DNA of 64,000 nucleotides from Strix aluco (taxonomy: Eukaryota > Chordata > Aves > Strigiformes > Strigidae), in contig NC_133954.1 in NCBI RefSeq assembly GCF_031877795.1, positions 7,159,256 to 7,223,255 of the forward strand, in the 5' to 3' direction. The translations under genes and the position numbers were made by a program. Positions 47,001 to 50,000 of this stretch are shown here, piece after piece; position 1 is the first letter of the stretch; each line of letters starts with the position of its first letter. Under the pieces are notes generated by a model. It did no database searches, was not told the DNA's origin, and worked only from the letters and a program-made list of their open reading frames with translations.

Positions 47001-50000
47001 AAGAGCAGAACAAGCATGGAACTTGCTTCACAGAGGTCTGACCTCCGCAAAGCAGCTCCTCTGGCCCGTTAAATAAATGCAGAATGACATCAGATTTAAG
47101 ATGGAGGTTGCAAACCCAGTTATGTCCCAATGCTTACGTGCCAAGCCCTCTGCAATGCTCAGTCTCTCAGGGAGGGCATCCACAGAGATCAAAAACAGCA
47201 CAAAGAAAATCCATCAGGAACATCTGAGAGGCACCAGATAGTTCCTCAGATGGCTGCAGACCAGGCAACCACAGACCCCGGGTCGCAATGTCTGGGGTCT
47301 CAGTGATGCACCTTCCTTGGTCCATCATCTTTCCTGGACCCAAACTCTGTCTCCAGAGAGACTGGTGTAAATCCGCCAACCTCTGTGGGGTTTCTCCAGG
47401 TTTCTGGCACGGTAACGGAAAGCTGAGTCTGGCTATTTATCTGGGAATGGCTGGAAATGCCAGCGCTGAAATCAATTAACTCAGTATTACTTTAGGCTCA
47501 GCCTCCATGGGCACTGCCAGACACATTCATTAGCAAGGAGAAGCTTAATATTTGCATGGATCATACTTGCCTGATAGGAACGGGTGGGAACCTGCGCTTT
47601 CACATGTTGTGCAGAGTCGTGTCCAATTTAGCAGTAGATTAAGCAACAAGGACTGCATTTGCTTAAAAATCTATCCATCTACTGCATCAGCAACTACGTC
47701 ACTGTCTGCTAGAGGCCACCCACCCTGCAGACAATGAGGCATTAAACCTTCCAGGTAGTGTAAAACCTTCGAGTTAACGGGATGTTTTGTTACAGACATG
47801 GTTTCTACACAGTTAGTTCTGTCCATGTCAGGCACGTACAGGACTGGTTAGGGTTGATCTAACCATGTCTTTTGGGTTAATGGGGTTAAACGACAGCACG
47901 TCACCAATCGCTATCTGACGGCAGGGTCGCTGCAGATAGCATTGGCGATTTAGTGTATACAACATGCCACTAATAATGATTATTACAGTGCATTCAAAGT
48001 GTGAAGGTACTCACACTGCCTCCTCCCGGGATGTGTTTGATATTATCCTTTGAGCCACACCTGGATTGAACGCTGCTAAAGTCCAACTTCTTATTAACAA
48101 TCTGCACCTTTGGTAGCCAGAAAAGAGTCATTGCACGTCACCAATAGCTATCTGACGGCAGGGTCGCTGCAGATAGCATTGGCAGTTTAGTGTATACAAC
48201 ATGCCACTTATAATAAGAACTATTATAGTGCATTGAAAGTGTGAAGGTACTCACACTGCCTCCTCCTGGGATGTGTTTGATATTATCCTTTGAGCCACAC
48301 TTGGATTGAACGCTGCTAAAGTCCAGCTTCTTATTAATAATCTGCACCTTTGGTAGCCAGAAAAGAGTGTGAGAAACAACATGACCATCTGCAGCTTGAC
48401 CATGCGTTATATCACTAAAACCAGGAACCTGCCTTCCAGTGCCAAGAGCAAAGGAGAATCTCTGGCTTGCTGCATAGATCTGTCTGCTCGTGGGTGGGAA
48501 ACTGAAGGTGGGCAAGTTATAGCTAGAGATTGGATACGTCTGGCTAGCAAGGCAGCGCCGGTTTCCAGGCCAGAAACACCAGCAAGCAAGCCAGCTCACC
48601 CCGTTTTCTTCCACAGAACAAAACGGGGAACTTGCTGGGCAGCAAACACGCTGGAAGGCACCAGTGCTCTGAGACTCAGCTTCTGCGGAAAGAGGAAGGA
48701 TGGAGCTGAGAGAAAAACGCCTGCTCAGCCCCATCTCCTGCGCCGGGCAGCATGTCTCCTCTCTAGGACAGACACACGTGCCCTCACGTTTCAGCAGCTT
48801 GAGCAAACTGGGCAAAGGGGTGGACTGGCAGGGCAGCAGGCTGGAGAGCTGTGCAGGGCTCAAACTCCCTCTACAGTTACAAAGAGAAAAAGCAAATGCT
48901 GCCAGGGCTGCCATCCCATGCCTGCAGTGCTCTTAACTCCTCTATGGATGAGACAAAAGGGGCGGCACAGACCACCCCAAAGGCAGCATATTCCTAACGG
49001 GTGGGAGGGAGGCTGGAAATGGTTTGGTGCCACAGGGGAACCATGTCCCACGCCAACGTCACCCCCCAGTCCCGCAGCCCGCTTGCCCTCTCCGCCACAC
49101 ACAGATTTTTGTACTAATGAAGCTCTTTCCATTTAGGGCTTGTTTTCCCTCGTTGGGTTTTATAAGGGCAGCTATGCTGGAGTGACCCCGCGCGTAGGAG
49201 CGGCTATTCCTGACAACACAAAGATGAAGACAGGCCCTGCTCCTTCCCCTACACGGACTGGAGTGGCTTTACAACCTACGCACGTATAAACCAGAGGTGA
49301 ATGCAGGTAAAAACCAGCAGGCACACAGGCCTGTGCTCCCTCAGGAGAAACCCTGTCTGAAGCACAACCCTCATGAGGGGGAAAGAGACACCCTGCAAGA
49401 GAGCAGCATCGCACTGCACGTGCAGTCCCCGGATGACAACGTCCCCAAAGCTGGCTGAGTGGGCAACCTCGCCCTCCATCTCAGCATGTCCCCGGCCTGC
49501 TGCTGTGAGGAGAGCTCCTCACTCTACCCTGGTTCTTTACCATGAGAAGCACCGAGGCTGACGCGCCGCCAGGATCATTTTCCAAGTTCCTATCAACTAA
49601 TCCTGCAAATCAGGACCCAGTTCTGCCAGACCAGGCTTTGCCAGAGCGGTATTCAGTGATCCAGCAACAACAAAAGTGCTCAGACAATGCAGAAATACTG
49701 GAAGAAATGTGGCCTGGCTGACTCATATGTGCCCCATGTACCTTTGCTTCCCTAGGCTGGGGGTCTGAAATCTGTGCAGAGAGCAGGCTCCAGACCCATC
49801 TTCTGGCCACCCTAAAATCAAACTTGTTGGATCAGCCCCTTCTGCTACAGCTGCAACCGTTCTGCTAAGAGCAGTCTCGTGTCCTACAAAATCCCCAACA
49901 GAGCATCCAGCCATTCTCCCCTGCAAAGAGCAATGAATTGTCCCAAATTCAGCTGCTCTCACTCTTTCAGTGACAACAATACACATGTCGCCTGACAGAG

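Follow-up and report, generated by a model that had tools for sequence, protein, structure and literature searches.

A tandem duplication of MAPT exon 10 in Strix aluco with the capacity for three-, four- and five-repeat tau

The window, a 64,000 nt stretch of Strix aluco DNA, corresponds to C24:7159256-7223255 in an assembly of 1,414,655,264 bases and 202 contigs. Five exons of MAPT, the tau gene, were found in order on its minus strand, with intron ends GT/AG throughout. Exon 9, which ends in repeat R1, lies at 51551–51816, with its 5′ boundary set at the closest AG following a pyrimidine tract, and exons 11 (R3, 82 nt) and 12 (R4, 113 nt) were located at 44305–44386 and 43604–43716, respectively. 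Between the R1 exon and the R3 and R4 exons, in the same gene and on the same strand, are two copies of the R2 exon, namely exon 10A (R2A; 48255–48347) and exon 10B (R2B; 48015–48107), separated by an intron of 147 nt (48108–48254). Downstream of exon 12, a region of degenerate tandem repeats with overlapping self-matches was observed at 37349–37788, in which TRF found 22.9 copies of an 18 nt consensus, GAGCCCAGAACCCAGCCT, with 67% matches at 37384–37787.

Exon 10A is 93 nt long (31 codons), as is exon 10B. Both are stop-free, both are preceded by the same 21 nt acceptor sequence ending in AG, and the donor, GTGAGTACC, is identical at the two exons, which agrees with the preliminary description of a complete, in-phase R2 exon with intact splice sites in each unit. 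The four differences between the exons are all transitions. Two are silent. The other two replace I by V at the fourth residue of 10B and K by R within its KCGS motif. An exon of 93 nt is a symmetric cassette, and either skipping it or using it keeps the frame. When exons 9 to 12, the part of the gene covered by this analysis, were joined with neither copy, with 10A, with 10B or with both, all four frames were free of stops, corresponding to 3R, two 4R (4R-A and 4R-B) and 5R forms. The earlier proposal of three-, four- and five-repeat tau thus holds as a statement of capacity, while the use of the copies in transcripts is inferred. A stop-free frame of 264 codons (48141–48932, minus strand) was also observed, running in the frame of 10A from this exon back into intron 9, so that an extended exon 10A would meet no immediate stop. 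This open frame is probably due to chance.

The duplicated exon is the R2 exon, exon 10, of MAPT. The two exon 10 peptides matched the tubulin-binding repeat PF00418 with 65.4 and 65.3 bits, and this was the sole Pfam family matched. Ten frames, taken from the 25 longest without stops that were listed, gave no Pfam family at E up to 0.01. Against R2 of the tau chain 9mc2 from the PDB, which we take to be the human tau sequence, 27 of the 30 aligned exon residues of the 10A peptide were identical, the query starting one codon ahead of the exon and stopping one codon short of its end, and the R1, R3 and R4 repeats of the same chain scored below R2. A single R2 is present between R1 and R3 in 9mc2. 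Another PDB chain, 6cvn_D, contains four R2 copies and was taken for an engineered construct.

A search of the whole assembly with the R2A peptide (E ≤ 0.01) gave seven matches, comprising the two exon 10 copies, the R4 exon of the same gene, and two matches in each of two paralogous loci, on contigs C1 and C6, that we presume to be MAP4 and MAP2. A tblastn examination of approximately 10 kb at each of these loci revealed three repeat-type exons per locus, one of which matches all 31 R2 residues. The V and R found at the two changed residues of 10B also occur in the R2-like exons of these two loci. No DNA repeat was detected by self-BLAST in the same ~10 kb regions at E 1e-6. With a single 31-residue R2 match and no such repeat in these ~10 kb regions, duplication of exon 10 as a trait common to the paralogous MAP genes was rejected.

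The globin family was represented by 11 matches in the assembly, of which C15 carries three and C2 carries five. A PDB comparison of two of these exons, one from each of these two contigs, gave alpha-A and beta chains as the best matches to a single subunit. They are drawn largely from the same entries, which are presumably haemoglobins of birds, and so point to a bird genome. The first six places for the alpha exon are taken by linked or engineered tandem alpha chains, which rank higher because they match twice. Two further globin-family matches (L021 and L022, 1501 onward), on C5 and C21, each contain one TGA within the matched stretch and may represent intron read-through or decayed copies.

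The exon 10 copies are contained in a two-copy, head-to-tail array on the minus strand at 47896–48368, with units of 236 and 237 nt that are 94% identical. The tandem duplication of tau exon 10 claimed earlier for this region was recovered with exactly the same limits by TRF, where it is one of 22 rows (period 240, 2.0 copies, 94% matches, score 842), and by self-BLAST of the window, which aligned the two units over 236 nt with 94.07% identity (E 3e-98). On the latter value, a chance repeat was rejected. Copy A, the upstream unit with respect to the transcript (48133–48368, 236 nt), consists of 21 nt followed by the 93 nt exon and a further 122 nt. Copy B (47896–48132, 237 nt) begins with a 4 nt filler, AATG, at the junction (48129–48132), followed by the same 21 nt as in copy A, the 93 nt exon and 119 nt. 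No microhomology was seen by inspection of the A/B junction. Mismatches were found at 12 of 233 aligned sites, together with seven gap columns, four at the junction and three in the intronic spacer. Self-BLAST of the window at E 1e-10 detected no third copy, and the 473 nt A+B stretch had a single match in the whole assembly. A mobile element was rejected, as a 76 nt stretch around a hairpin in the unit matched only its own two copies in the assembly, in a search that passes over very frequent words. Membership of a described RNA family was also rejected, as an Rfam search of 47400–48900 yielded a single match up to E 1, to mir-7578 at 48680–48747, which lies outside the unit and, at 21.3 bits, falls below the gathering score of 60.

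The differences between the copies are unevenly spread. None was found in the 21 nt acceptor, four in the 93 nt exon, none in a 16 nt donor-side stem-loop sequence, seven in the 52 aligned sites of the spacer, one in a 44 nt hairpin and none in the 7 nt tail. Acceptor, donor stem-loop and hairpin taken together differ at 1 of 81 sites, compared with 7 of 52 in the intronic spacer (Fisher p 0.006). When the exon is added to the first group, the comparison becomes 5/174 against 7/52 (p 0.007), and for the hairpin alone against the spacer p was 0.066. Differences are few and the segments for these tests were drawn post hoc, with the alignment already seen, so the pattern of constraint is suggestive only. 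At that strength, it suggests that differences avoid splice elements and that both copies may have been maintained.

The branch-point consensus is yUnAy, and over the 100 nt that precede 10A only one sequence matches it in full, CTCAC at 48369–48373 (minus strand), a putative branch point with its A at −23. The duplicated unit begins at 48368, 21 nt before the exon and immediately inside CTCAC, so that the only full match of 10A was left uncopied and 10B must use another site. No full match was found in the 100 nt before 10B. Candidate 10B branch points are provided by two looser matches within 48127–48141 (minus strand), ATGAC with its A at −21 and GTGAC with its A at −31. This region includes the AATG filler, and the ATGAC candidate spans the A/B junction. 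The lack of a full match before 10B means that this exon could be used rarely.

The 44 nt hairpin lies beside these candidates. It was found in both copies, separated by a 7 nt tail from the unit's 3′ limit, at 48140–48183 between the exons and at 47903–47946 downstream of 10B (both minus strand). The only difference between the two is in the bulge, and as none of the 25 predicted pairs differs, covariation is uninformative. The 147 nt intron was predicted to fold with −39.3 kcal/mol (z −2.51), a value equalled by 5 of 200 shuffles. For the 119 nt that follow 10B, the prediction was −36.3 kcal/mol (z −3.24; 1 of 200). The hairpin may have helped the duplication or may act in splicing. The donor-side stem-loop sequences (48239–48254 for 10A and 47999–48014 for 10B, minus strand) are identical, and the 51 nt windows around them showed no stability beyond that of shuffled sequences (10A, z −0.56, 56/200 as good; 10B, z 0.57, 144/200).

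Avian substitution rates of 1.0, 1.9 and 2.5e-9 per site per year were used to consider the age of the duplication. The 119 aligned sites downstream of the exons include eight differences, equivalent to approximately 14–35 My over these rates, and the spacer alone (7/52) gives approximately 39 My at 1.9e-9. These estimates carry wide errors and would be too low under constraint or conversion, so the duplication is not assigned an age. The lineages of Strix aluco and chicken split about 90 My ago, and a duplication older than this would predict 27.5% differences at a neutral rate of 1.9e-9. The downstream value of 8/119 is far below this (binomial 1e-8), and the spacer, at 7/52, is only mildly below it (p 0.013). 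This suggests either a younger event, independent of any in chicken, or copies that have been kept alike by constraint or gene conversion.

Tau with five repeats is already known in birds, a feature of which the locus described here offers an example at the genomic level. Citing Yoshida & Goedert 2002, excerpts of PMC7615684, PMC5818396 and PMC5450399 state that the adult brain of chicken expresses tau in 3R, 4R and 5R forms, and a passage of PMC5892924 gives apparently up to five repeats for chicken. Part of PMC8985376 describes chicken and birds related to it as having five repeats. The statement in the preliminary description that five-repeat tau had been described in chicken is thus in line with the cited passages of all five papers, and its view that a tandem exon 10 explains the origin of this form is a good inference. 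PMC8985376 also gives, in the same part, an average of three repeats per MAP protein for birds, so that five repeats may not be the rule across birds or in annotated bird proteins. The excerpts of three papers on tau evolution (PMC6759874, PMC4815063 and PMC9755724) did not refer to a second copy of exon 10, and no description of the genomic layout was recognised in a literature search that had most subscription papers outside its reach. Both exons may already carry annotations in genome databases.

Like chicken, Strix aluco is a bird with the capacity for three, four and five repeats, and its genome offers a pair of R2-type exons usable together in frame. In the excerpts cited, the chicken form is known as expressed in brain, whereas here the capacity is read from the genome alone. 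The arrangement also resembles the mammalian MAPT exon 10 cassette (3R/4R), in which an R2 exon lies in phase between R1 and R3, but mammals have one exon 10 rather than two, the second with a new upstream intron context. A hairpin at the border of exon 10 and intron 10 is described for mammalian MAPT in part of PMC9198270, and here both copies have a possible donor stem-loop. A further parallel is offered by exons Ab and 3 of U2AF1, which according to an excerpt of PMC5224494 are tandem homologous exons, one of which has a stem-loop and weak branch points on its upstream side. U2AF1 is an unrelated gene, and the stem-loop and branch points in the MAPT intron are predictions.

We consider it very probable that the locus carries two intact cassette exons 10, giving the capacity for 3R, 4R and 5R tau, with 10B in a new branch-point context. 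A tandem duplication copied exon 10 together with 21 nt of acceptor and approximately 120 nt of the following intron, as read from the two units. Because the splice sites are intact and the phases match, each copy could serve as a cassette exon, and inclusion of none, one or both would give 3R, two kinds of 4R, or 5R tau, a pattern of use that the chicken 5R form makes plausible. Exon 10A retains the original upstream intron and branch-point match, while 10B has to take its branch point from the duplicated beginning of intron 10 or from the junction, next to the hairpin. Given this new context, inclusion of 10B is probably weaker or separately regulated; separate regulation is also suggested by the U2AF1 case, where a duplicated exon has weak branch points and a regulating stem-loop upstream.

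If 10A and 10B were instead used in a mutually exclusive manner, tau would be 3R, 4R-A or 4R-B, and a 5R form would never arise. Such exclusive splicing is common for tandem homologous exons, and the weak branch-point context of 10B by consensus, like the weak branch points beside one duplicated exon in the excerpt on U2AF1, is consistent with it. We regard it as improbable, since the two exons together stay in frame, 5R tau is cited for chicken in the passages above, and the distance of ~117–127 nt from the 10A donor to the candidate 10B branch points is one over which a steric block would be unexpected. A reading of 10B as a duplicate that is decaying or goes unused, as its weaker branch-point match and two amino-acid differences from 10A might indicate, appears slightly more improbable; its frame, donor and acceptor are intact, the differences avoid splice elements (a post hoc observation), and V and R at the changed sites are seen in the paralogous R2-like exons. 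The possibility that the assembly has combined two haplotypes or mis-joined a repeat is extremely slight because of the ~5% divergence and the sharp junction with its 4 nt filler, to which can be added an indel, the single place occupied by the array among 202 contigs and the report of five-repeat tau in other birds in part of PMC8985376.

Beyond the preferred reading of two intact cassette exons, a more specific one can be proposed, in which 10B arose lacking the original branch point and is a separately regulated cassette dependent on a branch point and hairpin recruited from the former start of intron 10, repeat number rises stepwise from 3R through 4R to 5R, and the copies have either undergone gene conversion since before the split from chicken or arisen independently. 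We think this combination rather unlikely. If an independent origin in this lineage were true, five-repeat tau would have evolved more than once in birds. The exact gene layout eases the design of isoform-specific primers, the interpretation of reads and the dating of the duplication across birds. The balance of 3R and 4R tau matters in human tauopathies, and a vertebrate with two in-phase copies of one repeat exon would be a natural test of the trade-off between repeat number, exon 10 splicing and the aggregation-prone hexapeptides.
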